Source: Nannochloropsis salina CCMP1776
Lineage: Eukaryota > Sar > Eustigmatophyceae > Eustigmatales > Monodopsidaceae
DNA length: 64,000 nucleotides
Assembly (NCBI GenBank): GCA_004565275.1
Contig: SDOX01000071.1
Location: forward strand, 62,799 to 126,798
Reading direction: 5' to 3'
This document shows, one piece after another, positions 4,870 to 45,350 of the stretch; the first letter of the stretch is position 1; each line of letters opens with the position of its first letter. Made by a program: the position numbers and the translations under genes. The notes beneath the pieces are model-generated. The model did not search any database. It had not been told where the DNA came from and worked only from the letters and a program-made list of their open reading frames with translations.

Positions 4870-5575
4870 TAAGTGTTTCACCCTCCTTCTTTTTCTTTTT
4901 TACCATCTTCTATCTGATGACTTTACTAGCTCTATAAGAAGAGACCCTCTTGATTTGGTCGGGAAGCGAGTGATGTATTCTAAATTGCACTTCGACTTTA
5001 ATAATCACATGGTGACCCTGGGTGTAGAACACCCAGAAGGATAAAATGTGTTTCGACGTGCTGAGATCTGTCTAATTCTGAGTTTCCAATGTGGTACCAT
5101 TTTTTTTTTTTTCTCCAAACAGGCAAATTAGCAAACTGATTGACAATCGTAATGTGGTAAGGAATTTCATCAAGCCCCAGCCTCCGAAAGCTACTTTGAC
5201 TTATTGGAGTCAGTTCTGGGCCTATCACGTATTGACAATTCGGGCTCACGGTGGAAGGAAATTGATTCGTTACCAAGGTATGATACGAGTGGCCGCTTCC
5301 TTCGCCGTGCCAACCATCGGGCAAATCGATGTCACGAAGAAGGCTTTTCCGCATTATCTCTTCTACATGTGCGCCGTGCTCGTCTTTGAGATAATAACAG
5401 GACTAGACTGCCACAAATACGGGATAGAAGCCTTCATCGTGCACGACGCGTGCCAACATAGCAGCATCGGCGGGGTGGTGTGGAAATCTCTTGTACCGTG
5501 TCAAGATTTTGGCTGCGTTGAATGCAATAGACGAATGAACAGTATCGCATTGTTTGGGGAGAACAGTATGGGTCA
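4870..5575 (-). pseudogene. Truncated tandem copy of the transporter-methyltransferase-glycosyltransferase 3' end
   Basis: This segment matches 5715-6400, the last ~150 codons plus 3' flank of the neighbouring 928-residue gene, in the same orientation and directly downstream of it. The minus-strand frame from 5354 reads KSLLRDIDLPDGWHGEGSG, as in the C-terminus of the intact gene, and continues through LGLDEIPYHI and FANLPVW. It then runs past the stop position of the parent because the end has become a poly-lysine run. Further upstream, near 5385-5400, small insertions break the frame, and homology ends abruptly near 5575. It has no start and only the end of the glycosyltransferase domain, so I call it a non-functional 5'-truncated duplicate. 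Confidence 0.88.
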
Positions 5576-5941
5576 TATCCCATCCCTATCCCTACATTCC
5601 TATAACCAAAGATACCTAAAATCATATTGTACAAGCCGCTGAGATGACTTGCTGGGATTATCCTGCCATTCTTGTGCTTTTGTATTTGAATGCCTGTAAA
5701 GGGCATCTTGTAAGTGGGACTGAAACTGTTTTATTCTTTTCTTTTCTCTTTCCCCCCCTTTCTCTATGTGATGACTTGACTGCCTCTGTAGGAAGAGGCC
5801 CTCATGATTTGGTCGTGAAGTGAGTGAAGCATTCCAAATTGCACTGCTACTTGAGTAAACGCGTTATGACTCTCGGTATGAAGTACCCAAAACGATTAAA
5901 TGAGATCTGTCTAATGTTGAGTTTCCAATTTGGTGTCCTTT
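5576..5941. other. 3' flank of the fusion gene
   Basis: The part from about 5715 is the parent sequence of the 3' flank duplicated at 4870-5100. The left part, 5576-5714, has no counterpart that I can see. No gene. Confidence 0.5.
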
Positions 5942-8728
5942 TTACGTTTTTGCCCAAACAGGCAAATTAGCAAACTCCTTGACAATCGAAATGTGGTAAG
6001 GAATTTCATCAAGCCCCAGTCTTCTAAAGCTAGGTTGACCCATTGGGGTCGTTTCAGGGCCTATGACGTATTGACAGTGCTGGCTCAGAGTGGAAGGGAA
6101 TTCATTCGTTGCCAAGGTATGATACGAATCGCCGCTTCCTTCGCCGTGCCAACCATCGGGCAGATCGATGTCGCGAAGAAGGCTTTTCCGCACAACACGT
6201 GCGTCGTTCTCGCGATAATAACAGGACTTGACTGGCACAAATACGGGATAGAAGGCTTCATCGTACACGATGCGAGCCCACATAACAGCATCGGCGGGGT
6301 GGCCTGGAATTCTCTTGTACCGCGTCAAGATTTTCGCTGCATTGAATGCAATAGACGAATGAAAAGTATCGCATTGTTTGGGGGGGACAGTATGGCTCAT
6401 ACCTGTTAGGATGTCGTGTAAGACTGGCATTTCTTGATTCGAATGATTGATACACCATGTTGTTACAAACGTCGCTCCTGTTCGGATACCGTCGAGTATA
6501 TTTTGAAGGTGATCAGTGTCCCATCCATCGTCATCATCCAAATGAACGATCCATTCAAATCCATCGCCAAGAGCACGATCAATTGCGTTATTCATAGCAA
6601 TAGCACCAGCATTATACCAAAGTTCAGTCCCAGTAAGTTTTCCACGCTCCCCAGGCTCTGGGAGATTGTACATCTGAACGCGAGAATCGTCAAAGAAGGA
6701 TAGTGACTTCCACTCCGTTTCATCATCGTAATGATCCGCTGTCATGTAGAGCTTCCAGTTACGGTAAGACTGCTGCTGAAGCATCTTCCAGAGTCGCTCC
6801 AATATAGGCGGAGTGGATCCATCGGGGCGTCGATAAGTTGCGACTGCCACACACAGCACTGGCGTGGAGCGCTCCAATCCAGGAGTGAGTAGGGGAGAGA
6901 AACTGAACTTTCCCGGTTTTTGGAAAATGAACTCATTAATGAAAGAAGCATTGACTTGTGGGTGAATACCATGAATGTTCTGTGGACTCCCAATTGGGAT
7001 GAGATCAGTAGATTTTGCAATGTTATCCACTGCCCCTCTCACAGCTCCGCTGTACTGCCAATCCAAATAATCGTCAAACACCATAAAACCTCCTGGGCGT
7101 AAGAGATCGACTGTATTATCATAGTCAGCCCATACACCTTTTGCTGAATGATCTCCGTCGATGAAGATAATGTCGAATGTTTCTCCAACAGGGAGAGCTA
7201 CCGGCGAGAAGCCGACATGAAGATCCCAGGGCCTAGTCAGGTTACAGAGGGAATTGGGCACTATGGAGGCAAGATTTTTCCGAATAGTAGACTCTTGATC
7301 CAAAGAACCCCCGAAATGCTCAGTCGAAAGGACACAAGGGTCAACGAGAGTTGCATACGTCGGGAAAGGATGACTCAGCATAAAGGCGGAGGAAATTCCG
7401 GTATAGCTGCCAATTTCAAGGTACTTTGCTGGACGGTTTCCGAGGTGAGATCGCAAGTCGTACAAAATGTGCGTTGCATCGTGAAAGCTTCGCTCCTGAA
7501 TTCTCTCCTGAATAGATCTCAACACAGAAAGGGCCGTTTCTGTTGAATTCCAATCCGACGGAAACAAGTCAGTCTCCACGGGCAAGGGCTTCAGACTCCC
7601 TTGCAAATCATTTTGCCTCTCCATTATAGAGACGCGATAGAGCACTACCATGACACAGATCATAAAGTAGTAGTAAGAACGATGTGGCTCTGCAGGGCAC
7701 CGCGGGAGCTGATTGGAAAAGAAGTAGACAGCAGCAACGGTAGCAAACGCGCACACATTGAACAGTGGGGTGATGGACGTCCCGAACAAAAACGTACTCG
7801 CAACCGTAGAGAGCAGCACGCTGATACCAATGGCAAGTCCTTTCAATACATTGTCAGCGTACTTGATGACAGCAGATACGAGAAGACCCCCGCCAGAGAA
7901 GAGTAAAACTTGACACCACACCAAAGGAGTAAATCCATACAAAAAAGGCGAATTTTTGCCTGATTCTTCACTTTTCTGGAAAAAAAAATCACCTCTACCA
8001 ATCATTTGCAGAAGGAGGATGACAACGGAGCAGAAGGCTAATTGAATGTTACGCATCCAAATGGTTGGCGAATCTTTGATTTCTGTCTTGAGAATTTTTT
8101 CGAAATAGACTCCTGCGAAAGCACTCATCAGGCAGGAAAGAGTCACAGCAATGAGACCGATGATTAATGGCTCGTTGCTTACCACGAAGAAAATGTGGGC
8201 ATTACTTTTTGTTGGAGCATCGGTGACTTTCTTTTCCTCGAGCGTGACGAGGGCTACGCTCATGAAAATAATGACCAGACATGCCCATTGTCGAGACGAA
8301 TAATGACGCCCCAAAACCAATACGCTCACGACTGCCGTAACTATAAGCTTGGTTTGAACCATAACTTGGAATATCGGGACGGAGAGATTGGAAATGGCCA
8401 CGTACAACAACGTGTTGGACGCCCAGTAGAATACGGCAGGAACCGATATCCTGAGCAGATCATGAGGACGACCGTAAAGCCGTTCCTTGAGAGTTTTGAA
8501 GCCCTTTCGGGTAATAGCGCGAGGTAGTGTTTGTGTTCGAAAACTTGCTGCGAATTCAAGAAGGACGCTTATCACGAGCTTCATAAGTTCGCTGACGAGA
8601 ATGAATTGACCAATGTCATATAAGTTGTCCTTGTCGACGGCTTGGCGCGTGAAATGACCCAGTAACGCAGTCAAGGTGTTCTGAAGGACCAAAATAGTCA
8701 AGAGCATTACTTCAAATGAGAAGGGCAT
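5942..8728 (-). CDS. Fusion: nucleotide-sugar transporter + SAM methyltransferase + GT-A glycosyltransferase
   Basis: One uninterrupted frame of 928 codons from ATG 8728. Residues ~1-350 are a multi-helix nucleotide-sugar transporter of the SLC35A (UDP-Gal/UDP-GlcNAc/CMP-sialic acid) type, with GVYFEKILK and YADNVLKGLAIGISVLLS as family hallmarks. Residues ~395-565 are a class I methyltransferase like Methyltransf_24: AKYLEIGSYTGISSAFM is the SAM-binding loop, followed by IIFIDGDHSAKGVWADY and LLRPGGFMVFDDY. Residues ~620-860 are a GT2-like GT-A domain: CVAVATYRRPDG, then WIVHLDDDDGWDTDHL with the metal-binding acidic cluster. Known biology of the parts: the transporter would sit in the Golgi membrane, with its C-terminal domains attached to the membrane. 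I infer import of a nucleotide sugar coupled to transfer and O- or C-methylation. A truncated copy lies just downstream at 4870-5575. Earlier in-frame non-ATG codons were not used as start. Confidence 0.9.
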   Translation of the reverse strand: MPFSFEVMLLTILVLQNTLTALLGHFTRQAVDKDNLYDIGQFILVSELMKLVISVLLEFAASFRTQTLPRAITRKGFKTLKERLYGRPHDLLRISVPAVFYWASNTLLYVAISNLSVPIFQVMVQTKLIVTAVVSVLVLGRHYSSRQWACLVIIFMSVALVTLEEKKVTDAPTKSNAHIFFVVSNEPLIIGLIAVTLSCLMSAFAGVYFEKILKTEIKDSPTIWMRNIQLAFCSVVILLLQMIGRGDFFFQKSEESGKNSPFLYGFTPLVWCQVLLFSGGGLLVSAVIKYADNVLKGLAIGISVLLSTVASTFLFGTSITPLFNVCAFATVAAVYFFSNQLPRCPAEPHRSYYYFMICVMVVLYRVSIMERQNDLQGSLKPLPVETDLFPSDWNSTETALSVLRSIQERIQERSFHDATHILYDLRSHLGNRPAKYLEIGSYTGISSAFMLSHPFPTYATLVDPCVLSTEHFGGSLDQESTIRKNLASIVPNSLCNLTRPWDLHVGFSPVALPVGETFDIIFIDGDHSAKGVWADYDNTVDLLRPGGFMVFDDYLDWQYSGAVRGAVDNIAKSTDLIPIGSPQNIHGIHPQVNASFINEFIFQKPGKFSFSPLLTPGLERSTPVLCVAVATYRRPDGSTPPILERLWKMLQQQSYRNWKLYMTADHYDDETEWKSLSFFDDSRVQMYNLPEPGERGKLTGTELWYNAGAIAMNNAIDRALGDGFEWIVHLDDDDGWDTDHLQNILDGIRTGATFVTTWCINHSNQEMPVLHDILTGMSHTVPPKQCDTFHSSIAFNAAKILTRYKRIPGHPADAVMWARIVYDEAFYPVFVPVKSCYYRENDARVVRKSLLRDIDLPDGWHGEGSGDSYHTLATNEFPSTLSQHCQYVIGPETTPMGQPSFRRLGLDEIPYHISIVKEFANLPVWAKT

Positions 8729-8746
8729 CTTTCTTGCTTCAAACAA

Positions 8747-9285
8747 CAGATAACAACAAGGACAGGATAGAGGTTGAACGATGTCAGCTCCCTCTTAGGA
8801 CCCTGGATAAAATTTGTGGTGGGTTGTTTTCGATAAGATGATGATGTAGCCTGTGCACTTCGAATGGTCTCGAAGACTATGTCTTCTCGACAGGTGTTGC
8901 ACTTCATTTTGTAAGTCACTTCATCATGCCTAGAACATTGTTCATTCAAAAAAGGAACATTACGTCATTGTTGAGAAAACTTGCTCCTATTTAAGAGCAA
9001 TTGCCCCAAAACCGATTTCTCTACATGGTTATATTATCTTATCCTCAAATTTCTACTTTTCCAATAGCCTTCACAAATCGTAAGCAGATTCACAATTCAC
9101 TTGTGCATCAATTTCATCACAAGGAAACTCACGAGCCGCTCTTTACCAGCTCCCAGAGAGCTTTGTATGGAGTACACACGGAGGCTTTTTCAATTCATTT
9201 TCTTTTTAATTTTCATGCCTGGTCATTATAATTGATGTTAGTCACCGGCATGGTGACACATACCCCTATCACATTATGGGCATCA
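8747..9285. other. Intergenic, probable upstream region of the fusion gene
   Basis: About 540 bases upstream of the minus-strand fusion gene. No coding frame, RNA or repeat recognised; it presumably holds the promoter of that gene. Confidence 0.4.
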
Positions 9286-9289
9286 AAAT

Positions 9290-9480
9290 AAGCTCGCCCC
9301 GGGTCACGGGGGGTCACCGACTTGCCCTCCCCGAGATTCACCGATACTCGGGAAAACACAAGGATCTTTCCCGTCCCCCACCCATCCCACTCCCTCCCTC
9401 CATCCAAACGGGATACGCCGGAACTTGGGCCATTGAAATAAATATAGATTATATTGATACATTCTCAAGTCCTCCTGAAC
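9290..9480 (+). repeat. Interspersed hairpin repeat family, copy A
   Basis: Begins with the family hairpin (CCGAG, then a CACCGATA loop, then CTCGGG) at about 9331-9353. It continues through the CTCCCTCCATCCAAACGGGA block to the conserved GGGCCATTGAAAT segment, and ends in the CTCAAGTCCTCCTGAACTT terminus. Copy B follows in the same orientation. The element encodes nothing obvious. Confidence 0.8.
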
Positions 9481-9499
9481 TTCCAGGAGTACCGGCTGC

Positions 9500-9775
9500 G
9501 GCACCGGCATGGTGACACATACATATATGACATTATGGGCACCAAAATAAGCCGGGTCACCCCTCCCCAGAGATCCGCCGATACTCGGGAAAACTCAAGG
9601 ATTCTAGTGAAACTTCCGAATCTTTCCCGTCCCCGATCCATCCTACTCCCTCCCTTCATCCAAATGGGATACGCTGAAACTCGGGCCATTAAAATGAATA
9701 TAGATTGTATTCATACATTCTCAAGTCCTTCTGAACTTCGAGGAGTGAAAGCAATGTTACTTACAGTTGGCATCA
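9500..9775 (+). repeat. Interspersed hairpin repeat family, copy B
   Basis: Direct repeat of copy A with the same order of blocks, also sharing the CACCGGCATGGTGACACATA lead-in that precedes copy A near 9245. It carries the extra TCTAGTGAAACTTCCGAATC block, which is also seen in copies C, D and E. Hence A and B are a tandem pair, A having a small internal deletion. Confidence 0.8.
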
Positions 9776-9962
9776 AGTGTGCTCCTACCTCGTATATAGT
9801 CCTCAAAGGGCTTGTAGTAGGCAGCGCGGGAGGTGTCACGCTAGATTGCCTTGAATCTGCCCGTATCGATATGATGGTCACTACGAACAATGTCCATGTA
9901 GGCAGTACATTTGATATAGGACTGGCACATGTAATCTGGACGTTATATGATCATATCACCTC

Positions 9963-10400
9963 TCCATATTTGTTTTTAAAACACTTGGCCTTTTGGTCTA
10001 CAACCTTTGCTCTTCATGAGCTAACCTTTTGACAGACCGCAATAACAAATTCATTCCTGTAGATGTCTCTGCTTGTTATTCTATCTTGATAATTAAGAGA
10101 GGAGCTGCTTTGCATGTATGACCAACTCCACGAAAACTAGATAGACGAGGAACCATACCTCAACAAAATTAAGAGTCAAGATTCTGCATATCAATTCATT
10201 TTGTCTCATCTGGTCTCTTTGTCGGCTTTCAAAGAGCAATTGAGGTTGTCATGGAAGATGTAGGTGGCTGTGTTCACTACATTCCGTCTCCGTTTTTTTT
10301 TCAGTCAAGGTAGTTGGGTTGGATCATTTACTGGCTGTTTCAAAGAAAGCACAGCATCATCCGTGGCAAATGTATAAATTGTCGTAATTGAAGATGTGGA
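9963..10400 (+). repeat. Direct repeat flanking the acyltransferase-aminotransferase gene, left copy
   Basis: This ~440-base segment reappears at 12645-13095 on the other side of the 10814-12601 gene. Within it, 10050-10135 resembles the last ~85 bases of that gene's coding sequence (AAGAGAGGAGCTGCTTTGCA, ACCAACTCC, AAAACTAG) but is interrupted and frameless. It is a decayed 3'-end remnant plus 3' flank. Confidence 0.85.
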
Positions 10401-10813
10401 TGGTCGTTTCTAGGCAGTAGGCTATCAGCGCAAGTGTGTAGACAGTGTACTATTCCTATGTAGGTCATCATGCTATCCGTACAAAATAAGCTACCAGTGC
10501 AATACAGGCTATTCCCACAATGCACCGATAACCTGTTTTGCGCTGAAAACAATAAGGATGAGGGACAAGTTCTATTACTTAGTGAGCGGTACTCCTATCA
10601 TTATGTTGGCTTAATAAGAAGGGTGTGTTGTGTATTATACAATCAGTAATATATTCACAGCTCAATAATATAATATTCGTGTTCAAAAATCATAGCGATA
10701 AGATCCTGATCCTAATATATTAATGTCATGCGATCCATTCAGGTGCCGAGGTAGCTTACATTGCCGTAATAGCTTGTTTCGCCGAGATAGGACATCGCCG
10801 CATCGTCATTGTC
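10401..10813. other. Upstream region of the acyltransferase-aminotransferase gene
   Basis: No gene recognised. The frame of the downstream gene stays open from about 10724, without an ATG, and reads a plausible peptide (AEIGHRRIVIV) just before ATG 10814. A longer N-terminus supplied by an upstream exon is therefore possible. Confidence 0.35.
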
Positions 10814-12601
10814 ATGTCAAGGACTAATGCTACAAGTTTGATAATCCCACGGCCTACTTCAAGGGTGGCAGTCCTTCGCGGTGGCGGCCGTCATGCAGCT
10901 GTTGTTTGGGAGCAAATTGCAAGTGGATATGAGGACGTAAGAGTGTGGGATGATTCCAAGAACGATGCCGACCTGCACCCCCTCCTACGGGGTCTCCCCA
11001 GATTCGATCCAAACAGTTACAACATTGACACAAATTATGGCCATAGCCTTTCTTCGATTGATTGTTTCGTCGCAGTAGGCTCTCCAAGTGTTCGCAAAAA
11101 GCTTGTCGAAAGTGTTGAGAACGCATCGCTTCCATCAGTCTTTTTTCCAACAGTCATCCACAAGACAGCTGTCATTACAGACACTACTCAAATTGGAATC
11201 GGTTGTTTCATCGGACCTCAAGCCTTGGTGAATACCAGCGCAATCGTTGGTAAATTTTGCCTCATCAATTCGGCTGCGATTGTCGAGCACGATTGTCGGT
11301 TGGGAGACTATGCGACTCTCAATCCAGGTGCTATGCTCTTGGGAAGTGTTATCATGGAGAGTTTGGCCACACTGGGCGCAAATGCAGCAGTACGAGAGAA
11401 TCGTACCATAATGACCGGAGCCACTGTCGGAATGGGTGCTGCCGTTGTGCGAGACGTTGACGGACCCCTTTACGGCTTCTGGGGTGGCGTACCCGCCAGG
11501 CCCATTACCAGAACGATTGTCAGCGATGATGGGCACCGAATTCGATGGTGTGTTAAAAAGTTATTTTCAATGGACCGATATGCTCAGTATCTGCATCGCA
11601 GTCTTGTAAAGGGACATCTCACTAACGATGGACCGCTGCAGTCCGTTTTACATTCCAAGGTCAAGAATTTAGTTCGATCCAATCGCGATGTATTACTGGC
11701 TTCAAATGGAACTTCAGCACTCCATGCACTCGCGGCGGGACTTGAATTACGAAAGGGAAGACATCTAAGATGGGTGACACAGGCCTTCACCTTCCCTTCC
11801 TCAATTCAGGGACCACTATCAGATGCCTTCGTGTGTGACATCGACGCCAATCTATACGGGCCCTGCATTCAATTTCTCAATGAGAGAAAAGCAGATTTTG
11901 ATGGAGTTATCGTCACAAATTGCTTTGGATATCAGACGGAGATTCTCGCGTATGAGAAATGGTGCATTCGGAATGACAAATTCCTGATTTTCGACAATGC
12001 CGCCACTCCTTTGGGATTTGTCGAAGATGGCCGTTGCATTCACGATGTTGGAGATGGTGCCTTTATCAGCTTTCACGAGACAAAACCATTTGGTCGCGGC
12101 GAGGGAGGGGCCATATTTACAGGGAAAGACATTGCCCCTTTTGTTCATCAAGCGATGAATTTTGGATATGATATACCCAATCAGGTTCGTATTCCAAACC
12201 GTTATTCAAGCAATTGGAGAATGTCCGATTTCGCTGCTGCGGCGATTTGTGATCACATTGATCAAATCATTTCTGAAAAGTGGGAAGATAAGCTCAATGC
12301 TCTTACCCGTTTTTCAGCTGAAGAGCTTGGAAAAAAAGGATACCGGATGGCATTTCAAGTGTGCTATCCAACCATACTGAGTTGCCTGTTTGTGGATTTA
12401 GGCAATCAATCTGGTGAAGCCACTTGTCGGCAGCTGAATTCTCATGGGACTGAGGCAAAGCATTATTATCGTCCTCTTATCGATAGAACTGCAGCTCCCC
12501 GAGCTTGGGGACTTTACGATAGAAGTCTCTGCTTGCCATTCCATATTGGGATATCAAGAGAGGAGCTGCTTCGCATGTTCGACCAACTCCCCAAAAACTA
12601 A
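10814..12601 (+). CDS. Bifunctional NeuD/PglD-like acyltransferase + DegT/DnrJ/EryC1 sugar aminotransferase
   Basis: A 595-residue single-exon protein. Residues ~12-240 match the PglD/NeuD sugar N- or O-acyltransferase layout: a small nucleotide-binding front (VAVLRGGGRHAAVVWEQI), then hexapeptide left-handed beta-helix repeats with the catalytic-type His in IVEHDCRLGDYATLNPGAML. Residues ~265-590 are a PLP-dependent nucleotide-sugar aminotransferase: LLASNGTSALHALAAGLEL, an aspartate in FLIFDNAATPLGF, and the Schiff-base lysine in FISFHETKPFGRGEGGAIF. In bacteria these two activities act in sequence on a keto-sugar nucleotide to make N-acylated amino-deoxysugars such as bacillosamine, Qui3NAc or Fuc3NAc derivatives; the exact sugar cannot be read here. 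No signal peptide is evident, so a cytosolic enzyme feeding a Golgi transporter is likely. Start ATG 10814 is the first in frame; TAA at 12599-12601. Decayed copies of its 3' end lie on both sides. Confidence 0.88.
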   Translation: MSRTNATSLIIPRPTSRVAVLRGGGRHAAVVWEQIASGYEDVRVWDDSKNDADLHPLLRGLPRFDPNSYNIDTNYGHSLSSIDCFVAVGSPSVRKKLVESVENASLPSVFFPTVIHKTAVITDTTQIGIGCFIGPQALVNTSAIVGKFCLINSAAIVEHDCRLGDYATLNPGAMLLGSVIMESLATLGANAAVRENRTIMTGATVGMGAAVVRDVDGPLYGFWGGVPARPITRTIVSDDGHRIRWCVKKLFSMDRYAQYLHRSLVKGHLTNDGPLQSVLHSKVKNLVRSNRDVLLASNGTSALHALAAGLELRKGRHLRWVTQAFTFPSSIQGPLSDAFVCDIDANLYGPCIQFLNERKADFDGVIVTNCFGYQTEILAYEKWCIRNDKFLIFDNAATPLGFVEDGRCIHDVGDGAFISFHETKPFGRGEGGAIFTGKDIAPFVHQAMNFGYDIPNQVRIPNRYSSNWRMSDFAAAAICDHIDQIISEKWEDKLNALTRFSAEELGKKGYRMAFQVCYPTILSCLFVDLGNQSGEATCRQLNSHGTEAKHYYRPLIDRTAAPRAWGLYDRSLCLPFHIGISREELLRMFDQLPKN

Positions 12602-12644
12602 AGCTCCAAGATTGTCCAGACATATATTATTTATGATTGCACAC

Positions 12645-13095
12645 ATCTCCATATTTGTTTTTAAAACACTTGGCCTTTTGGTCTACAACCTTTGCTCTTG
12701 AGCTACACTTATGACAGACCGCAATAAAAAAATCATTCCTGTAGATGTCTCTGCTTGCCATTCTATCTAAGATTCAAGATGAAATTAAGAGAGGAGCTGC
12801 TTTGCATGTATGACCAACTCCACGAAAACTAGATAGACGAGGAACCATACCTCAACAAAATTAAGAGTCAAGATTCTGCATATCAATTCATTTTGTCTCA
12901 TCAGGTCTCTTTGTCGGCTTTCAAAGAGCAATTGAGGTTGTCATGGAAGATGTAGGTGGCTGTGTTCACTACATTCCGTCTCCGTTTTTTTTTCAGTCAA
13001 GGTAGTTGGGTTGGATCATTTACTGGCTGTTTCAAAGAAAGCACAGCATCATCCGTGGCAAATAGTATAAATTGTCGTGATTGAAGATGTGGGTG
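12645..13095 (+). repeat. Direct repeat flanking the acyltransferase-aminotransferase gene, right copy
   Basis: Near-identical to 9963-10400. It includes a second eroded copy of the end of the aminotransferase frame at about 12745-12833, 150 bases after the intact end. The interior reads AAGAGAGGAGCTGCTTTGCA and ends AAAACTAG, so a stop codon position is kept although the frame is lost. Confidence 0.85.
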
Positions 13096-15604: not shown

Positions 15605-16835
15605 CTGTCACGTTTTATGGCCATTCCAAGAATCCAATCAAGTTCTTCAAGTCTTTCATACTAAATTTCTTTGAAATTGCTTCTTAGAAATCATCGATCA
15701 TAGGTCTGGAATTACTAGCGATTATTAAGTCGTCTACGTATAAGACGATTACCAGTATTTCATCATTAAATCCAAACTTTACATGTAAGCATGGATCCGC
15801 AGAAGAAGGGTGGAACCATATCCCCGAAACCATCCATCAATCTTCTTGTGCCAGTTTCGTCCAGATTGCTTCAGGCCATATAATGACTTATGCAATCGAA
15901 AAACTAGCTCTTCCGCATTTGGTCCATGCTGCTCGTATCCAGGTGGCTGCTTGGTGTATATCTTTTCTTCAAGGTCTGATTGAAGATAAGCTGTGTCTAC
16001 ATCCATATTATCCAGTTTTCAGTCCAGAATGCTTGCTAAAGCCAATATTAAACGAATCATGGTCATCGATGCAACCGGTGCATAAGTGTGAATGTAGTCA
16101 TACCCAAACTCCTGACTATAGCCTTTGGCAATAAATCTTGCCTTTCTTCTCACGATAAAGCCATTTTGATCTCGTTTATCCGTTTCAACCCAGCCACTCG
16201 AGATGCATCGTTCTCCTTTTGGTAACGGAGTTAATTCCCAGGTACCGTTCTTCATGTGGGCCTGGTACTCTGCATCTTTGGCTTTCTTCCTTTCAGCTTG
16301 CACCTCACTCTCATCTTCCGTGTGATGAAAGTCCTCATTGACAATTTCTGAGGCTGCAGCGAAGGCTAAATTACCTCCCGTAGTTGCAAACTCATCATCC
16401 ATTTGATGACGTTCACGTGCTTTCGTCTTGCTACGTGTACGTCCCATATTATTCATATTTCGATTAATCTCATCCGTGTCTTTCCATCCTGTTGCCCCCA
16501 CTTGCGGCTGATCCTCCCTGACATGATCAATCCTGCGATCATCAGGTCGATCATCTTGATGTACCCCATCTTCGATATCATCATCATCCTCACTTGTATC
16601 GGTAGGTGGTACCTCATCCTCCTGATGAGCCCCCACTGTCTTCATATAATCCCTATCATTTTCTTCTTCATTATGATAAGGATCACTTCTAGTGATCGGT
16701 TGCCTCTGCTTCGTTGGGAATATCTCCTCATCAAACGTAACGTGACCAGATTTGACGTATTTCTCAATAGAAGGCATATAAATTCGATATCATTTAGAAT
16801 TGTTCCCTACGTCATCATATCCAATCATGATTACT
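15605..16835 (-). pseudogene. Copia pol fragment (integrase end, reverse transcriptase start)
   Basis: Reads on the minus strand from YVKSGHVTFDEEIFPTKQ (post-integrase linker) through WELTPLPKGERCISSGWVET and GYSQEFGYDYIHTYAPVAS (start of the reverse transcriptase domain) to LVFRLHKSLYGLKQSGRNWH. It ends near the segment equivalent to LDWILGMA. Frames are broken at several places. There is no YVDD-containing intact domain, RNase H or protease. Confidence 0.9.
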
Positions 16836-24969: not shown

Positions 24970-27900
24970 ATGTTGTCTGGCTTCAACCCACCGCTAGCAT
25001 GTACATATGCGGTCCCACTCCTACGTATAAATTACCGGTCCATGTATGAATCGCATCAATGGACCAAATCATTGCCTCTGCCGAAAGGTGAAGAATCAAC
25101 GAGTGGCGTGATTGCCCAGACTTCACCTCCCAAGGAGATGTCCGAGCAATCATTAATCCTTCACCCTATGCTCGTACACAGACAGGAACGCTTCCATAGG
25201 GGGAACATCTTCTGTTTGCTGTCGTTTGGCTTGCGAAAGCGCTTTATCATGTCATTGGCGGCAACACACACAACACCAAAAGCGTCTCCCAGGAACGGGA
25301 ATGGAAAATCGGGGAGTACCGTACGTTTGCATGTAGTGGGTTTGCTGTGCATGGACTATTGCGGAAGAAATGTAGAGCGGGCCATATCTGCTTTGCCGTT
25401 TGTGGAGGAAGCTACCGTTGATTTTCCCAACGAAGTAGTCATAGTTAGCTTGAGGAATTCCGGGCCCCCACCTCCCGAGACTTTGAGTGCAATTTGCAAG
25501 GCCGTCAAGGACATCGGCTACGACATCCAGCGAGTGATTGACGTAGAGGACACTCAAAAGGGACAAGGCGACTCTGGTAAAGGGACTGTCGTGAAGGGGG
25601 GCGATAAAACAGGACCTAGCCACGGCGAAGGGAAGGGCCGGGACGGACGACAATTGGGAGCTACTGACCAAGCAGCCAGGGCTTACCCCTACAGCACCGA
25701 AGTGGAGATATCGGTGGGAGGGATGACATGCCAGTCCTGCGTGCGTAAGCTGAGCCGGGCTTTGGAGCCATTGCGGGCCGTGGAAGCCGGGTCTGTGGAT
25801 GTGGACTTGGAAGCTGGTGTGGTGAGCGTGCGGGTCAAGGGGGGAGGGGGGACTGAGGACGAGGAAGGACGACAAAGGAAGGGCAGCATGGTCGACGAGT
25901 TGAAAAGAGCCGTGGAGAGCGTGGGGTTGGAGTGGCGGGGGCACTACTTGACTTTGATGGGGCATAAGGGCTCTCTGGGCGGGAGCACGAAGGACCTGGC
26001 GGCGGTCCGGGAGGGGACGGGCATCGCCGACGGGGACAAGGGCAGTGGAGCCACGAAGGGAGCGAAAAGGTGTTGCCAAAAGGCCATGGGTAAAGAAGGT
26101 AGGGTGAAGGAGGAGGAGGAGGAGGAGGAGGAGGCGGAGGCACGCGCGATCACCGCGAAGTCCTTGCTGGCAGAGCTTGAGCGGCAGCTGGAGGCGTCTC
26201 GTCGAGCCAGGGACAGCTCGGAGCCGACAGTGGTGGAGGTGGGCCTTGAGGTGTGGCCCACGCAGCGGCAAGGACAGGGAGGGGAAGGGGAGGGGGATGG
26301 ATGGAGGGACGAACGGGCGAGCCGAAACAGGGCTCGAAACGCCTTGCGAGGTGCGGAGGGCGTGGTCTGTGCCCGTGTGGTGGAGGAGGATAGGCGCAGC
26401 CACTTGATGCTCGCGAGAGTACGCGTTCGCTGTAGGGGATCGGAAACGCGAGGGAGGGAAAGTGAAAGAGCGCGAGAAGGAAGCGCTGTGGGAGGATGCG
26501 AGGGGGGGAAGGCCCCGGCCTTGGTGACGGCCGTGGGGAAAGCAGGTTTCGCGGCGAGGGAGATCCCCGCCAAGGAGGCGAGAGAGCGGATCCAAGCCCT
26601 GGAATGCCCCTCGAGGTCCTCATCGGTACCCTCGTCGTCCCCTTCCTCCCCCCGCCGGCGCCAGCAGCAGCCCCTACTCCCCCCCACCGCCCACACGTCC
26701 ACCGCCCTCGGCCCTGCTCTCACGGCCCCTTCCCTGGGAAAGGCCTTGCCGCGCCCGCCCGGCCCCCGTCCTCGGGAGGTGGGGCACCTGGGGGACGCCA
26801 CGGCGGTCTTCGACGTGAGGGGCATGACCTGCGGCGCCTGCGTTTCCACGCTGGAGACCGCCCTGGCCCGCGTCCCGGGAGTGGTGACTGCCAAAGTGGC
26901 CCTTCTGTCCGAGCGCGCCGAGGTCCTCTTCGACTCGGAGGTCACGGATACCAAAAAACTGACGGCCGCCATAAAAGCGGTGGGCTACGATGCTTCCCTG
27001 CGGACGAGCGCCAAAGAGGACGGGGTCAAGAGCCTCTCTACAGCCCTCTTCGAGGTACAGGTGCCGACCACGGTGAGGGAAGACGGGAGCAGGGAAGGGA
27101 CGGGGCGGGAGAGGGAGCGGCGGAGGTTCTTGGCGGGGCTATACCAGGGTCTGGCGGGGACAGAGGGCGTCCTGGCCGTCGAACTCCGGGAGCCGGCCTC
27201 CTCGCTGCTCGTGGGGCGGGGGCGGGGGGAGGGGGATAGGGTGCAGGTGGCGGTCTCCTATGAGTCGGAGCTGGTGGGCCTGCGGGATCTAACGCATGCC
27301 ATGCGCCGGAATGGATACGCGGCTCGCTTCCTTCCCCAAGGACCCTCTCCGTCGTCCCCGGCTCTGAGTCTGGCGGCCAAGCAGGAAGCCCACCTGCGAG
27401 AGGCGTGGCACCGGCTGTGCTTTGCGCTGTTCTTCTCGGCGCCCGTCGTTCTTTTGGCCATGGCCCCCTCCTCGACCCTCTTCCCCTCCATGCCCCCAAC
27501 TCTTCCCCCCTTTCGCGATCTTATCTTTTTCCTTCTCTCCACCCCAGTCCAGTTCGGGGCGGGTGCCGTGTTCTACCGCGAGGCTTACAAGGGCTTGCGT
27601 GGGAGCTCCTACGGGATGGCCTTGCTGGTGGCCATGGGGACCACGACGGCTTGGGGCTTCGCTGTCTTCTCGCTGCTCAGGGCCTGGGCGAGCGGATGGG
27701 TTCTGCCCAGCAACAGCGACTTCTTCATGACGAGCTGCATGCTCCTGTCTTTCATCCTATTCGGGAAGTATCTGGAGCACGCCGCCAAGAAGCGGACGAG
27801 CACGGCCCTGACCAAGCTGATGGACATCGCGCCCAAGGTTGCTTTGCTTCTTGTGGTGGAAGACCGGGTGAGAGAGGAGGGAGAAGAGTGGGATCCGGTC

Positions 27901-29880
27901 GAGCAGACCGAGGGACGAGGCCCCGCGAGCACCAGCGACTATGAAGGGATTGGCAAGGGCGGCGGGTTTGCAGTCGGTCAGGTCGACGGCGTCGCGGACG
28001 CGGCTGCGGGGCCGTCGGCGGTGGTGGAAGAAGAGATGATCTCTGTGGAGCTGGTCCAGCGGGGGGACCTCTTGAAGGTAGTCCGGGGTACTCAGGTGCC
28101 GGCGGACGGGGTGGTGCTGCGTGGCGAGGGCTTCGTGGACGAGGCCTTGATCACCGGGGAGTCGCTGCCTGTGACCAAGCGGGCGGGGGACCGGGTCATG
28201 GGCGGGAGTCTGAACACGGAGGGCCTCTTCGTCATGCGCGTCACGGGCATTGACGAGGACTCGACGCTACGGCAGATCATTCGTCTCATGGAGGACGCCC
28301 AGCTCTCCAAGGCACCCATCCAGGCCCTGGCGGATCGGATCGCCGGTTCCTTCGCGCTCGCCGTGCTGGCCATCTCCCTCCTGACCTTCACGGGCTGGCT
28401 TTTCGCCCTCTACCTTGGCTGGGTCCCCGATTCCTGGCTCCCGTCGGAGCAGACCGCCACAGGGAAGGCCTCTCCCTTCGTCTTAGCGCTGACTTTAGGA
28501 GTCTCGACGATGGTTGTGGCGTGCCCGTGTGCCATGGGGCTGGCCACGCCCACTGCCATCATGGTGGGCACAGGGGTGGGGGCGGCAAACGGTATTTTGA
28601 TCAAGGGCGGGGAGGCCTTGGAGAAGGCGTACCGGCTATCGGCGGTTGTGTTCGATAAAACGGGGACCCTGACGCAGGGGCAGCTGGCAGTGGACCGGTT
28701 CGTGCTGTTGGAGGACGAGACAAAGGAGGAGCATGAGGGCCGAGGGGAAGGGGTGCAAACAGCTTCTTCCTTTTCCTCGTTTGCTTCCATCGTGTGGGCA
28801 GTGGCTAGTGCTGAAAGAGGCTCGGAGCATCCCGTGGCGAAATGCATTGTGCGGTACTATTCCTCGCTTGCCTCCTCCTTCTCGTCATCGTCTTCTCCAC
28901 CTTCTTCCGTCCCTCTTCGTGTCCCTGCTTTCTTTGCACCTTTGGTGGAGCCTCAAGACTTTCATGCCGTCTCAGGAAAAGGCCTTCTTTGTCGCGTCGG
29001 CATGCGCAAAGTTGCCGTTGGTACTCGGGCATGGCTTGCAGAAGTCCACGCTTCGCCTCCCTCTCCAGCTGCTCTTAAAGCGGCCAAGGATGCCGAAAAT
29101 CTAGGGAAAATTGTGGTATGGGCCGCCTTCGACGGAAAGACCGCCGCTCGGATCGAGATACTCGACCAACCTCGTCCTGAGGCCGAGGTTGTCGTTCAGG
29201 CCCTGACCGACTCGCTCAAGCTAGAGGTTTACATGGTGAGTGGCGACAATGCGAGGACGGCGTCGACCGTAGCGCGAGGACTGCGAATCCCTCCCTCCCA
29301 TGTCATGGCAGAGACATTGCCTTCCAACAAGGTGGCGAAAATTAAGGATTTGCAAAGCCGTGGGCACGTGGTGGCAATGGTCGGCGATGGAATAAATGAC
29401 GCGCCGGCCTTGGCGCAAGCAGATGTGGGCTTGGCCATCGGTGCGGGAGTAGAGGTAGCTCAAGAGGCGGCGGATATGGTGCTTATCAAATCTGATCTGA
29501 GGGGTGTCCTAATTGCCATCCATTTGTCGAGAACTATTGTCCGTCGCATCTATTTGAACTTGGTCTGGGCCTTGCTATACAACGTTGTGAGCATTCCTTT
29601 GGCTGCAGGCTTACTATTGCCCTGGCTGCACACTGCGATCCCGCCATACGTTGCAGGGGCAGCTATGGCTCTTTCCAGTGTCTCTGTGCTGGCGAGTTCC
29701 CTAGACTTGAAGCGCTACAAGCCGCCCAACGTCGTAAATGGTGCCTCGGAGGACAGAGGATGCCTCATCGGGGGAAAAGGCCGACAGAATATTGATGCAG
29801 GGGGTTGGCGACAGGTCAATGACACATGCGGTTTACTAGCATATCAAGCGCACAGAGAGACAAGTTACGGAGGTCTTTGA
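24970..29880 (+). CDS. Cu+-transporting P1B-type ATPase with several HMA domains
   Basis: A 1636-codon frame from ATG 24970; a later start at ATG 25249 (MSLAATHTTPK) is equally possible. It has three recognisable heavy-metal-associated domains: ~residues 117-165 with an unusual LLCMDYCGRN (five-residue C-MDY-C), ~245-310 with GMTCQSC, and ~612-680 with GMTCGAC. Long Glu- and Pro-rich linkers separate them. The catalytic core follows: LITGES phosphatase motif, VVACPCAMGLATPTA with the transmembrane CPC metal site, FDKTGTLTQGQ phosphorylation site, ERGSEHPVAK, and MVGDGINDAPALAQ. Two hydrophobic segments near the end complete the membrane domain. It pumps Cu+ (or Ag+) out of the cytosol, probably into Golgi or plastid, using ATP. 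It is longer than typical members (~1000-1500 residues) because of the linkers. It belongs to the GC-rich conserved block, not the repeat-rich end. Confidence 0.95.
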   Translation: MLSGFNPPLACTYAVPLLRINYRSMYESHQWTKSLPLPKGEESTSGVIAQTSPPKEMSEQSLILHPMLVHRQERFHRGNIFCLLSFGLRKRFIMSLAATHTTPKASPRNGNGKSGSTVRLHVVGLLCMDYCGRNVERAISALPFVEEATVDFPNEVVIVSLRNSGPPPPETLSAICKAVKDIGYDIQRVIDVEDTQKGQGDSGKGTVVKGGDKTGPSHGEGKGRDGRQLGATDQAARAYPYSTEVEISVGGMTCQSCVRKLSRALEPLRAVEAGSVDVDLEAGVVSVRVKGGGGTEDEEGRQRKGSMVDELKRAVESVGLEWRGHYLTLMGHKGSLGGSTKDLAAVREGTGIADGDKGSGATKGAKRCCQKAMGKEGRVKEEEEEEEEAEARAITAKSLLAELERQLEASRRARDSSEPTVVEVGLEVWPTQRQGQGGEGEGDGWRDERASRNRARNALRGAEGVVCARVVEEDRRSHLMLARVRVRCRGSETRGRESERAREGSAVGGCEGGKAPALVTAVGKAGFAAREIPAKEARERIQALECPSRSSSVPSSSPSSPRRRQQQPLLPPTAHTSTALGPALTAPSLGKALPRPPGPRPREVGHLGDATAVFDVRGMTCGACVSTLETALARVPGVVTAKVALLSERAEVLFDSEVTDTKKLTAAIKAVGYDASLRTSAKEDGVKSLSTALFEVQVPTTVREDGSREGTGRERERRRFLAGLYQGLAGTEGVLAVELREPASSLLVGRGRGEGDRVQVAVSYESELVGLRDLTHAMRRNGYAARFLPQGPSPSSPALSLAAKQEAHLREAWHRLCFALFFSAPVVLLAMAPSSTLFPSMPPTLPPFRDLIFFLLSTPVQFGAGAVFYREAYKGLRGSSYGMALLVAMGTTTAWGFAVFSLLRAWASGWVLPSNSDFFMTSCMLLSFILFGKYLEHAAKKRTSTALTKLMDIAPKVALLLVVEDRVREEGEEWDPVEQTEGRGPASTSDYEGIGKGGGFAVGQVDGVADAAAGPSAVVEEEMISVELVQRGDLLKVVRGTQVPADGVVLRGEGFVDEALITGESLPVTKRAGDRVMGGSLNTEGLFVMRVTGIDEDSTLRQIIRLMEDAQLSKAPIQALADRIAGSFALAVLAISLLTFTGWLFALYLGWVPDSWLPSEQTATGKASPFVLALTLGVSTMVVACPCAMGLATPTAIMVGTGVGAANGILIKGGEALEKAYRLSAVVFDKTGTLTQGQLAVDRFVLLEDETKEEHEGRGEGVQTASSFSSFASIVWAVASAERGSEHPVAKCIVRYYSSLASSFSSSSSPPSSVPLRVPAFFAPLVEPQDFHAVSGKGLLCRVGMRKVAVGTRAWLAEVHASPPSPAALKAAKDAENLGKIVVWAAFDGKTAARIEILDQPRPEAEVVVQALTDSLKLEVYMVSGDNARTASTVARGLRIPPSHVMAETLPSNKVAKIKDLQSRGHVVAMVGDGINDAPALAQADVGLAIGAGVEVAQEAADMVLIKSDLRGVLIAIHLSRTIVRRIYLNLVWALLYNVVSIPLAAGLLLPWLHTAIPPYVAGAAMALSSVSVLASSLDLKRYKPPNVVNGASEDRGCLIGGKGRQNIDAGGWRQVNDTCGLLAYQAHRETSYGGL

Positions 29881-31993: not shown

Positions 31994-34073
31994 ATGACCT
32001 TCCTTTTATACATACCACAGAGTACAGGGGGAGTTTCTTACAAAAACAGAAATTGCAGATTAATTATTATGAATAAAAAATCATTCGCATGGGCCTCCCA
32101 AAAAACTTCGTCAGACGGCGTTGATCATTATTCGAAACGAGCGCGAGGACTACCTGTTCTGGTGCTCAAAATTGCCATGGCGGCACTCCTTGTCCTATGC
32201 ACGTACACGAATAGTATCAATCATCGAGCAGATAGGAATCAAACTGTCTCCATTTCGCAATCAATAAAGTCGATGGAGATTTTTGAAGTGAGTGAATCTA
32301 TGAGAGCTACTTCAAGTAGAAATGGGGGCGGAAATGAGCTTGCAAGCGAAGAAAAGGAACGGAATCATGTGAAAGGGTGGGGTGCGACTGCAGGACAGCC
32401 TCCTTCTTTTTGTATATCTGAACATCAAGTTATCACCGCACCTACACATCACGTCTATGTCGCAGCAAGCCTTTTTAATGGCGCCGCTTTCGTTGTAGAT
32501 TTTTTAGAAAGCATCGAGAGACAGGACTATCCTCAAGTTACGGTTGTGATTTATGACGATTCTTCTTCAGACGGAAGCGCAGATCAAGTCGCTTCTCTAG
32601 CGCCCTCTTTTCCGTACAACATTGTGCTCCTACGTGGCAACGAGAGAAAAGGCCCTGCTCATGCAAAGCTGAGACTTGTACATGCCATTCGCCAAATGGC
32701 AACACCTATGGACCTGGTTCTTTTCTTAGACGCCGACGATAAGTTTTTTCACAAAAATGTACTTAAGGAGGTGGCGTCAACCTTTCGAAGGAAAAAACCT
32801 TGGTTCGCTTATGGTCGCATTCGAGGATATTTCGAGGAGCAATGCGCCCCCCCCCCATCGATAGTCTATTATACCCAAAACAAAACATCGAGTGTACGAA
32901 CGGGCCCATGGTCTTATTGTCATCCTCGAGTATATCGCGCATTTTTACTAGATTACTTCAATGAGACAGATTTTCGGGATCCGCTGTCGGGACGATGGCT
33001 GCTTAAATACACCGATCGCTCGATGGTTTACAAGGCGCTCGAACTTTCTGGTGACGAAAAGGTCGCTTTCATGGATGGCGAACAGCCACATGTTTACTAT
33101 CGCATGACGAGAAACTCAACCGTCTATCTTAGCAACGAAGTAAAGGAAATGGACTTTAAATACTGTCAGAGACTCCACGCAGAACCCAACGCGTTGCTGG
33201 AGCCTATCCACATTGTAAGCTGCGCTTTCAAACGTGTTTCATTGTTGTCCGAGGTCCTAAGAACGAATATAGAAAAACAAGATGTAGGGATTCGGCCTGT
33301 CTACATTCATATATGTAATAACGGGAATGATGAGCAGGCGGCAACCATCAAGGCCGTCCTAGAAGACATAAAAGGCCTTGCTGGGTATAGAATTCGGACA
33401 TTTAGAGACAATCCAGGTGGATTTGCCCGTTTCAATATGATGCAGGATGCAGTAAAAGAGTTCGGTGTGGACTATTTTGTTTTGATCGATGATGACATTC
33501 AGCTGCCAGTTCCGTATGGTCTAAAATCACTCATCGCGCAGGCCAGGCCGCAGGAATATAATAGCTGGTGGGGAAGGCATTTCAAAGGACCAGACAAGGA
33601 TTATCACTCTTCTAAACTGAGTCTACAGGACCTCAAAGCCGGAAGAAATAATGCCATTAGCAAATTTCACTACGCTGGGACGGGGCTTGCGGTGATCGAT
33701 GCTGACATTGTTCGGTTTTACTTCTTTCTGCTTGACAAGGTGCGTAAGATAGGGGTGGTTGACAGATTCATTTCGTGGTTCGACTACAAGAGATTTTACC
33801 GACCTTGGCATTGATGTGCTTGATCAATCCATCAAACAGGTGCCTAGCATATATCGAAAAGTTGAGGATCTCTGGTTGTCTTACGTAGTCCATCAACTCG
33901 GCTGGCGGGTCCGCCGCATAATCATGGCCGATGTCAATTTCATGGAAGACGTGAAGTTAGACAGAAATGCTTCTAGTACGATGCTTGTGCAAAGCACAGC
34001 TTTGTGGAAAGATCAAATTTCCTTCAAGCTGAAAATGCTTGAGGAGCTCCGTTCCTGCGGCTGGAACGTGTAG
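31994..34073 (+). CDS. Golgi-type protein with two GT-A (GT2-like) domains, two exons
   Basis: Exon 1 31994-33739 and exon 2 33840-34073, joined across a 100-bp GTGCGT...AACAG intron, give 659 residues. The join passes from RFYFFLLDK to VPSIYRKVEDLWLSYVVHQL. A signal anchor lies at residues ~52-68 (VLVLKIAMAALLVLCTY), so this is a type II membrane protein facing the Golgi lumen. Domain 1 (~150-280) has HHVYVAASLFNGAAFVVDFL, VVIYDDSSSDGSAD and VLFLDADDKFF, a GT2 fold with a DxD. Domain 2 (~395-600) has IHIVSCAFKRVSLLSEVL, YIHICNNGNDEQ and YFVLIDDDIQLPVPYG. Two catalytic domains recall polymerases that alternate two sugars; that is inference. Part of this gene is copied beside the telomere at 63500-63796, and its anchor-coding bases resemble those of the GT49 locus. 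Confidence 0.85.
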
Positions 34074-34880
34074 CAAAATCGAACATGTGCATCTTCCACA
34101 CTGCCTGATATTCGAAGCATAAAGAATTGATATTGTTGTACAACCTCTTCGCATGTAGCGCAGAAGGTTTGGACAATCATTTGAAGCTGTCGACAGCATG
34201 TTGATGGTAATGCGTGGTGCTTATGCCTTATAACAAAAGATCACGTTATGGGCATATTTGATCCTCTCTAAACGGTATTTGATCTCTCTAAACGGATGCT
34301 CCACTTACAGGAGTAAATAAAAGAATTTATATAGAGGATGGAATTGTGTTCCGAACTTCGAAAATCTCCTAGTTTTAACGCTCTTAGTCTCTTTCAAAAG
34401 AAAAAGCAAACGAAATCAAGTTCCCTCCTTGCGAGAGGCTCGGGTTCGGATACACCCGATCTTTAAATGCGAAATGCTCCTTCCAAACTCGTATCAGTTT
34501 CCTGGGGATAACATTTCTTGTATTTGTTCTCTATCGTCGGAAAGTCGAATGAACAAGAAGCTTATGCTAAAGGTGAGGTGAAGATAGGGGTCAAACTGGT
34601 AGAAAGCTCAGGGGAAGGGGGTTTATTATTTATTGGAGCTTCGCTATATAAAAATACTGGCGTACATTAAATAAGAGGTTAAAGAGCCCTCAAATTTACG
34701 GACTCGATGTATTCGAAAAAAGTAGAGTGAGTGTGTGAGTTCTTAGCTTGTGCAGTATTTTCGCTTTTAAAAAAGACAGATCGGGACACTTTTTAACCAC
34801 GTTTCCAGCATGAAGGTGCACACGCATCCTTTTAAGACTAGAGGAAACATTTGAGAATGTTTATATTCTTGAATAGTTTT
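34074..34880. other. Intergenic between convergent glycosyltransferase genes
   Basis: 3' flanks of the two-domain GT gene and the GT92 gene. AT-rich; no gene, RNA or repeat recognised. Confidence 0.4.
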
Positions 34881-36982: not shown

Positions 36983-37021
36983 GATGATGAAGTGTAGAGA
37001 GCGCCTAAACAAGACTGTATA

Positions 37022-37847: not shown

Positions 37848-38003
37848 TAAAAAGCATTTCAGATGAGGGTATTTATTCACTAGGAAAGAATCTCTTGTGT
37901 CATTCTCCTTCTTCAAGCAACAGGAAACAAAGCAAACCTTATCCAACTTCAATAAATCGTCTTTGTGAGGCCAAGCCACAAGATATTATTAGAGCTTGGG
38001 ATT

Positions 38004-42859: not shown

Positions 42860-43119
42860 CAAATCAATTTAAGTACCTAAGGCAGATGGGTGAAATTGAT
42901 GATATCGGAGTGCCAAAAGGAATTCGGAAGCCCGGCATCTGCGGAACGTGTGAACGAGCGAAATAAACAAAAATGAGTTTCGGTACCAAATCTAGGGAAA
43001 GGGCGAAGGAGCCGCTTGAACTAGTCCATTCTGATGTACTTGGACCAGTATAGGTAGAATCACTTGGAGGCGCAAGATATGCGATAGGATTCACGGATGA
43101 TTATACCTGATGGAGGGTA

Positions 43120-44732: not shown

Positions 44733-44840
44733 GGGTTATGCAGCCTGGTCACGCGTCCAGACATTGCATTTGCGGTGCAATCGTTGGGGAAACCATTGCA
44801 AGGATCTAATGAAATGCATTGAATTGATGTAAAGCGTGTA

Positions 44841-45350
44841 TTGAGGTACCTGAAGGGTACTCGTGAGGTTGGATTGAACTACACTGGTAATACTACGGGA
44901 TCTTTTACCCTAGTAGGATACGCGGACGCGGATTACGCTGGTGATATAGATAACAGACGTTCAACGTCTGGTTATGCTTTTACATTGAGTCATGGCGATA
45001 ATATCGATACGATTGATTGGAAAGCCAAGCAACAAGATGTGGTGGCTCTATCGTCGGCTGAATCGGAGCTAATATCTGCTTGTTCGGCGACACAAAGTGC
45101 AGTTTATGTTCGTCAATTGCTTATGGACCTCGGATTAAAGCAAGATGAGCCTACCATAATTATGGAGGATAATCAAGCTTGCATTGCGATGAGCAACAAT
45201 CCAATTACGCATAAGAGGACGAAGCATATCGATGTTCGATATCATTTTGTGCGTGAGAAAGTTGAGAGTAAGGAAGTGGAGCTGGTATACATTCCTACTC
45301 AGCATCAACTTGCGGATATTTTAAGTAAACCCTTATCTAGTATTCGATGA
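44841..45350 (+). pseudogene. Copia RNase H domain
   Basis: Open frame reading RYLKGTREVGLNYTGNTTGS, YADADYAGDIDNRRSTSGYA, VALSSAESELISACSATQSA and IIMEDNQACIAMSN, then HIDVRYHFVREKVESKEVEL. It is the C-terminal part of pol, separated from reverse transcriptase by the deletion. The domain itself looks intact. Confidence 0.9.

Follow-up and report, generated by a model that had tools for sequence, protein, structure and literature searches.

Transporters of the SLC35A type are built of ten helices, their N- and C-termini both being cytosolic, and they are known for carrying common sugars. In the mammalian Golgi, SLC35A2 and SLC35A3 are found together with MGAT glycosyltransferases in the membrane, and a hand-over of cargo from transporter to glycosyltransferase has been argued from FRET and BiFC contacts of these separate proteins (PMC6453868). 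A second related system is that of mimivirus, where UDP-Vio4NAc is the product of R141, L136 and the N-terminal part of L142. The C-terminal part of this last protein is a putative glycosyltransferase (GT), R132 is a proposed O-2 methyltransferase (MT), and 2-O-methyl-Vio4NAc is present in the fibrils (passages of PMC9614988 and PMC10117803). According to PMC10117803, the amoeba host does not make the amino sugar viosamine, which has otherwise been encountered only in bacteria. Here we describe a gene in which a SLC35A-type transporter, an MT and a GT are joined in one chain, together with its divergent neighbour, in a window of 64,000 nucleotides (contig C80, 62799-126798) from an algal genome of 26.5 Mb in 103 contigs. 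Compared with the mouse CMP-sialic acid transporter (6oh2/6oh3), which is the closest solved structure and has the same ten-helix fold (32% identity to 6oh3, Foldseek), the algal protein has one extra helix and about 550 C-terminal residues of enzymes. The SLC35A2/A3-MGAT partners are separate proteins, whereas the algal fusion is one chain that includes a methyltransferase. Like the mimivirus cluster (L136, L142, R141, R132), the alga seems by homology to encode a DegT aminotransferase, a NeuD/VioB-type acetyltransferase, a 4,6-dehydratase, a SAM methyltransferase and a GT. However, the mimivirus fusion joins NeuD and the GT (L142), the proposed MT stands apart (R132) and the passages of PMC9614988 and PMC10117803 name no transporter, while in the alga the fusion partner of NeuD is the aminotransferase and that of MT-GT is the transporter. 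The fusion is real and conserved, and it is undescribed in the literature searched.

The fusion gene lies on the minus strand (Table 1), a strand that the earlier note had left unstated, and is read as a single intronless frame of 928 aa from an ATG at 8728 to a stop codon at 5944-5942. The frame is open from a TTG six codons before this ATG, and the plus strand of the same interval has 16 stops. The unbroken three-part frame of 928 codons that had been proposed from the letters alone was borne out by Pfam, by two more intact copies and by homologues, and both its coordinates and its quoted motifs proved exact (EIGSYTG at residues 438-444, FIDGDH at 522-527, RPGGFMVFDDY at 544-554 and HLDDDDGWD at 729-737). 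The three Pfam domains, Nuc_sug_transp (E 6e-74), Methyltransf_24 (E 3e-14) and Glycos_transf_2 (E 8e-7), are all above the gathering score. The transporter part reaches 249 bits against PF04142 (cut-off 27), covers profile positions 4-314 of 315 and shows the ten-helix DMT fold in an AlphaFold model (TM-score by target to 6oh3, 0.80). In the MT part a match to the PF13578 profile goes along with kept residues of the SAM site and metal site, and in the GT part a match to PF00535 (GT2/GT-A) goes along with a DxD-type acidic motif and a GT-A fold.

Table 1. Features of the fusion gene and its surroundings (positions in the window)
Feature	Position	Strand	Evidence
NST-MT-GT fusion gene	5942..8728	-	frame analysis, Pfam, genomic copies, homologues, alignment
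SLC35A-type nucleotide-sugar transporter, residues 4-337, ten TM helices	7718..8719	-	Pfam, solved-structure match, model
Extra helix 11, residues 350-376, predicted to lead the chain into the lumen	7601..7681	-	hydrophobicity over 14 rows, model, charge pattern
Sequon N394-S-T past helix 11; column with sequon in 13/14 rows	7541..7549	-	alignment
Methyltransf_24 domain, residues 437-554 (Pfam limits), class I SAM fold	7067..7420	-	Pfam, alignment, fold match
GT2 domain, residues 627-764 (Pfam limits); GT-A fold match ~622 to 841	6437..6850	-	Pfam, alignment, fold match
Decayed piece of a second fusion copy, residues 776-927, 78%, one internal TAG	5109..5579	-	genome search; just downstream of window copy
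Intergenic region common to both divergent genes	8729..10813	.	locus comparison
NeuD/VioB-type N-acetyltransferase fused to DegT aminotransferase, 595 aa, divergent from fusion	10814..12601	+	Pfam, profile and solved-structure matches
NeuD/PglD/VioB hexapeptide acetyltransferase part, residues 20-229	10871..11500	+	TIGR03570 144 bits, under cut-off 160.8
DegT aminotransferase part, residues 257-590	11582..12583	+	Pfam; mimivirus L136 as top solved-structure match, E 6e-45

Among 5.8 billion proteins searched, with 7998 candidates scored, there were 55 matches, and the transporter and MT Pfam domains occur together in 16 of them, the query included, at identities down to 45%. The named carriers of the fusion nearest to the query are all diatoms, Amphora coffeaeformis (P0010, 53%), Cyclostephanos tholiformis (P0012, 55%) and Cylindrotheca closterium (P0020, 45%, taxid 2856), which fits the earlier guess of a stramenopile; P0020, a transcriptome peptide from MMETSP, spans helix 2, both junctions and the rest of the protein through to its end. 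The statement that no described enzyme has this domain order still holds for the literature searched, where no described NST-MT-GT protein was found, but the protein is not a lone oddity and belongs to a conserved family. Fourteen of the 16 sequences with transporter and MT were aligned at full length, leaving out P0004 (shortened) and P0021 (divergent transporter); P0012 and P0020 enter this alignment without the first helices. Identical in 14/14 rows are G440, D526, D552 and D553 of the MT and D731, D734, W736, D739 and D813 of the GT, and 13/14 rows keep D524 and H527 of the MT and E694-R695 of the GT. In P0020 the pair E694-R695 is gone and the GT motif is degraded to LDENDHW, and P0006 has R in place of H527, which suggests that some members may have lost activities.

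The same MT-GT (54% over 98%) is also found in P0056 after a TPT-like transporter (TPT 25.2 bits; cut-off 30), and this protein is placed elsewhere in the tree than the SLC35A fusions. In that tree (52 rows, midpoint root) the 31 eukaryotic-type rows cluster together (100/99), with P0067 alongside. In P0029 from Attheya septentrionalis a related transporter (39% over 44% of the query) is followed by a hydrophobic stretch and then by a glycosyltransferase, although this one is of the PF04488 type and comes without a methyltransferase. Taken together, P0056 and P0029 suggest that carrier and transferase were linked on more than one occasion, and such linking would, if this is true, be a recurrent solution. 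Within the algal genome, two further full-length, stop-free fusion copies (89%) are located on contigs C74 and C76, and MT-GT matches occur at four places only, these three intact copies and the decayed piece of Table 1. Pairwise dN/dS of the fusion, taken as simple counts with no significance test, is 0.39 (C80-C74), 0.40 (C80-C76) and 0.35 (C74-C76). The intact copies, the dN/dS values well below 1 and the same order of domains in other lineages all indicate that the fusion is more than chance.

The best clue to the substrate of the fusion is the NeuD-DegT neighbour. Its DegT part, after the match to mimivirus L136 given in Table 1, finds the next other aminotransferase among solved structures at 3e-11, and it carries the motif FHETKPFGRGEGG at the lysine altered in 7mfp; by homology it is an aminotransferase of the L136 type known from the viosamine pathway. 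The NeuD part has VioB (7txp, 1e-21) as best solved match, and the runners-up 4m98, 2npo, 3bss and 4ea7 (6e-18 to 1e-16) are N-acetyltransferases of pilin glycosylation, bacillosamine and perosamine (4ea7). The gene had been missed in the earlier note. Searched for the DegT family, the genome gave six places, and the top three are those beside the fusion copies, each head-to-head with the fusion. At C74 the NeuD-DegT gene is intact (595 aa, 94.6%; dN/dS against C80, 0.17). At C76, beside an intact fusion, it is broken: its fragments lie on either side of what by eye is a copia-like element, and it also has a frame change and a stop. The intergenic regions measure 2085 (window), 1237 and 1249 b, and the surplus in the window includes local repeats. 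In Amphora coffeaeformis, NeuD-DegT (AAC.50) and the fusion (AAC.51) have consecutive numbers on scaffold2917. P0003 and P0104 each lie on an ENA contig of 22,749 b and, by this equal length alone, probably share one contig. NeuD-DegT is also present in Hyaloraphidium and Eutreptiella, neither of which is among the fusion matches. As for the remaining activity of the route, an exon on C70 best matches 6bi4 and mimivirus R141 (6vlo), and C72 holds a second 4,6-dehydratase candidate; no place in the genome passes the TIGR01181 cut-off. By homology the alga seems to have an NDP-glucose 4,6-dehydratase, encoded outside the gene pair, and the rhamnose route needs one too.

The predicted activities of the algal pair plus the dehydratase amount to the mimivirus viosamine route re-cut and rejoined, with the addition of a transporter, which a lumenal GT would need. 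We propose a single-chain machine of the Golgi (or ER) membrane. In the cytosol, the 4,6-dehydratase and NeuD-DegT would make an NDP-4-acylamino-4,6-dideoxyhexose, as suggested by homology to the R141/L136/L142 route. The SLC35A-type part would import this sugar nucleotide, and helix 11 would take the chain across the membrane, so that the MT and GT2 domains are predicted, from several lines, to be lumenal. The GT would then put the sugar on a glycan, and the MT would O-methylate it before or after transfer with SAM brought in by a separate carrier, SAM import being assumed. Plants import SAM into the Golgi. A Golgi SAM carrier was not found in the literature searched, where the passages of PMC6397879 treat other matters. 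The transport, sugar and enzyme activities of the fusion are all predicted, and a channelled route to a methylated sugar is plausible on the arrangement of the domains. For a lumenal one-chain machine that imports, transfers and O-methylates a 4-acylamino-4,6-dideoxyhexose, we see the chances as evenly balanced. The substrate class is moderately supported. Within it, the likeliest sugar, weakly supported by analogy, may be a 2-O-methylated N-acylviosamine-like residue, because aminotransferase, VioB-type acetyltransferase, methyltransferase and GT co-occur in the mimivirus route; a link of viosamine to diatoms was not found in the literature searched.

The transporter part could alternatively serve as a Golgi anchor only, with the donor of MT-GT entering via another carrier. 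We consider this unlikely, but it accounts for several observations. In a survey of the N-termini of 24 proteins, 7 of the 14 transporter-less eukaryotic-type MT-GT rows (P0023, P0024, P0026, P0027, P0028, P0060 and P0062) start with a hydrophobic stretch, which might act as a simple anchor and would fit a lumenal enzyme. Nevertheless several of these may be truncated fusions, since P0017, with a lower hydrophobic score, is clearly a shortened relative of P0007 that begins at helix 11, and since P0023, P0024, P0026, P0027 and P0062 group in the tree with the TPT-fused P0056. An anchor would also agree with the lower constraint on the transporter than on the MT when C80 is compared with the other copies (0.40-0.49 vs 0.18-0.20): the dN/dS by part is 0.49 for the transporter, 0.56 for the linker, 0.18 for the MT and 0.35 for the GT against C74, and 0.40, 0.62, 0.20 and 0.45 respectively against C76. 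Besides, three more SLC35A-type transporter loci, unjoined to MT-GT, are present on C56, C55 and C6. An anchor would not explain, however, why transporter residues are invariant across the family, including the equivalents of K127 and N227 (K289 in at least 90%), nor why P0056 has another type of transporter at the same place. We take the equivalents of K127, N227 and K289 to be the lining of the CMP site in the mouse transporter.

A transporter that works in its own right, as in the machine proposed above, might still carry another sugar, such as UDP-Gal, UDP-GlcNAc, UDP-Rha or similar, with the neighbour linked for another reason. The common sugars associated with SLC35A-type transporters would agree with this reading, as would the rhamnose, GlcNAc and fucose transferases among the fold neighbours of the GT and the presence of NeuD-DegT where no fusion is seen. 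It is opposed by the gene pairing, held at three loci and in Amphora, and by part of the viral evidence. A scan of IMG/VR with one GT motif gave 112 relatives, from which 80 loci were kept, loci thus selected for GT; a scan with the whole fusion as query found nothing. In 5 of these loci MT-GT is one frame (~450 aa), and in 37 the MT and the GT have frames of their own no more than 300 b apart; the two are further apart in 13 and the GT is alone in 25. These viral clusters of MT-GT with NeuD or DegT hold homologous MT and GT with no transporter attached. A NeuD-type frame occurs in 47/80 loci, a count that tells less than it seems because NeuD-like acetyltransferases are common in sugar loci, and a DegT frame is near the MT or GT in just 3/80, which would rather agree with another sugar. 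Nevertheless, GT, DegT and MT lie in overlapping frames in LR756501, a 735-kb uncultured phage. On balance we hold another sugar to be quite unlikely.

The earlier note had made its proposal depend on a transporter C-terminus that faces the lumen. This is favoured by prediction, with one gene model against it. In the AlphaFold model (71 sequences; mean pLDDT 89.0, pTM 0.64) the ten transporter helices are followed by helix 350-376 and then by a flexible stretch. The linker has a hydrophobic 19-mer in 13/14 rows, at a mean Kyte-Doolittle value of at least 1.3 that was chosen after the rows had been seen, and its sequence there is poorly conserved; the same level is reached by 187 of 4200 random 70-residue MT-GT windows. 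Over the 14 rows, K+R make up 17.0% of the predicted cytosolic loops and 7.9% of the lumenal ones, and 17.3% just before helix 11 against 8.1% just after it; in the predicted cytosolic loops 291-292 and 215-222 K+R are unremarkable. A sequon within 45 residues ahead of the FH motif of the MT is found in 25 of 27 eukaryotic-type rows vs 3 of 16 others, the rows being sorted by tree and domains and many of them closely related. For this count 58 rows were kept, of which 2 eukaryotic-type rows and 13 others were set aside because fewer than 30 residues precede the motif; P0023 and P0026 are among the rows that do not match the motif. Some viral relatives have counterparts of the sequon at N593 as well, which leaves the one near 394 as the sole sequon in favour of the lumen. 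That the MT and GT domains would be on the lumenal side is well supported by the model and these patterns.

If the enzymes were instead cytosolic, the fusion would export or exchange a sugar nucleotide and MT-GT would act on cytosolic or membrane acceptors. The gene model of P0010 (Amphora), which is without helix 11, perhaps from a gap in the model, and the soluble look of the viral MT-GT relatives lean this way, but helix 11 in 13/14 rows, the positive-inside pattern and the sequon enrichment make it very unlikely. That two or three genes were joined by assembly or gene calling has a negligible chance and is rejected, because three genomic copies, a conserved frame and homologues in other lineages, including the transcriptome-derived P0020 across all junctions, rule out the assembly error at the junctions raised in the earlier note, and no point in its support was found.

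A natural fusion of this kind makes the hand-over from carrier to transferase testable with one gene. If the sugar is right, algal glycans would hold an amino sugar that has been described in bacteria and giant viruses, with a possible, speculative role in recognition by viruses or grazers. The fullest form of our proposal is doubtful as a whole: a covalent Golgi line of import, transfer and methylation for 2-O-methyl-N-acetylviosamine or a close 4-acylamino-4,6-dideoxyhexose in photosynthetic eukaryotes, in which the donor would come from the divergently paired synthase gene and be used at once by the same chain, the linking of carrier and transferase would be recurrent, and the enzymes would be kin to viral sugar genes.

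On this last point, the MT-GT enzymes probably share ancestry with viral sugar genes. Among 50,697 virus records three matched, all of them phages, and two of these are copies of one 735-kb genome. L011, the only IMG/VR locus read for its neighbours, has by eye the look of a tailed phage. A fold search of BFVD returned sylvanvirus, pithovirus and phage proteins mixed, and none of the 50 matches listed covers both domains with a low rmsd. A giant-virus origin of the module was dropped on the phage-like L011, the matched phage records and these mixed folds. The tree, with its midpoint root, bears on origin only by showing the eukaryotic-type grouping. Bacterial genomes were also considered as a source of the two-domain protein. 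A pattern made from the MT motif gave 36 bacterial loci, mostly of the MT side, none of which covers the GT (a weak test, as the pattern was the MT motif), and the furthest reaches residue 268 of 463. The bacterial MT relatives include Rhizobium and Pantoea dispersa, and they overlap with those named for R132 in the passage of PMC10117803 on that protein.

The NeuD-DegT gene, which encodes an acetyltransferase joined to an aminotransferase, is flanked by a repeat of about 450 bases (window 9957-10399 and 12642-13092) whose two copies are 94.7% alike, and the copy that lies in the intergenic region includes a short stretch resembling that gene's own 3' end. The repeat pair reflects local duplication and decay. 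The neighbouring transporter-methyltransferase-glycosyltransferase fusion is accompanied by a decayed partial copy (Table). The NeuD-DegT copy on contig C76 contains an element that, by eye, is similar to the copia-like frames of the window.

Joining of transporters to enzymes is also found in other proteins. In P0029 (Attheya septentrionalis) a transporter and a PF04488 glycosyltransferase form one protein, in which a hydrophobic stretch separates the two, and in P0056 a TPT-like transporter precedes the same methyltransferase-glycosyltransferase module as in the fusion. NeuD-DegT fusions are also present in Hyaloraphidium curvatum (P0140) and Eutreptiella gymnastica (P0181), a fungus and a euglenid, respectively, both outside the diatoms. 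A huge-phage locus, L145, has a run of sugar-related genes (Table). With three further glycosyltransferase genes (Table), the 64-kb window itself is a glycogene-rich region.

Table. Coordinates of further features in the window and elsewhere.
Feature	Position	Strand	Remark
Decayed second copy of the fusion's glycosyltransferase end	window 5109-5579	-	directly downstream of the intact gene
Copia-like gag-pol frame	window 16019-16777	-	by eye
Copia-like gag-pol frame	window 41681-45350	+	by eye
Copia-like gag-pol frame	window 54788-58280	-	by eye
1636-aa frame resembling a copper P-type ATPase	window 24970-29880	+	several metal-binding domains; by eye
Glycosyltransferase gene	window 31994-33814	+	GT2
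Glycosyltransferase gene	window 34880-37012	-	GT92
Glycosyltransferase gene	window 50226-51368	-	GT2-like
Frame with secreted look	window 37965-40319	+	by eye; long repeats of TDTPT and APSDAPFA
Huge-phage run of overlapping genes	L145 5276-8377		formyltransferase-like frame (by eye), glycosyltransferase, DegT aminotransferase, methyltransferase
Several NAD-epimerase-type frames, one region	G000:C3, about 22988-152157		590-730 aa

At least two of the NAD-epimerase-type frames on contig C3 carry, as judged by eye, N-terminal hydrophobic stretches and an additional C-terminal part.
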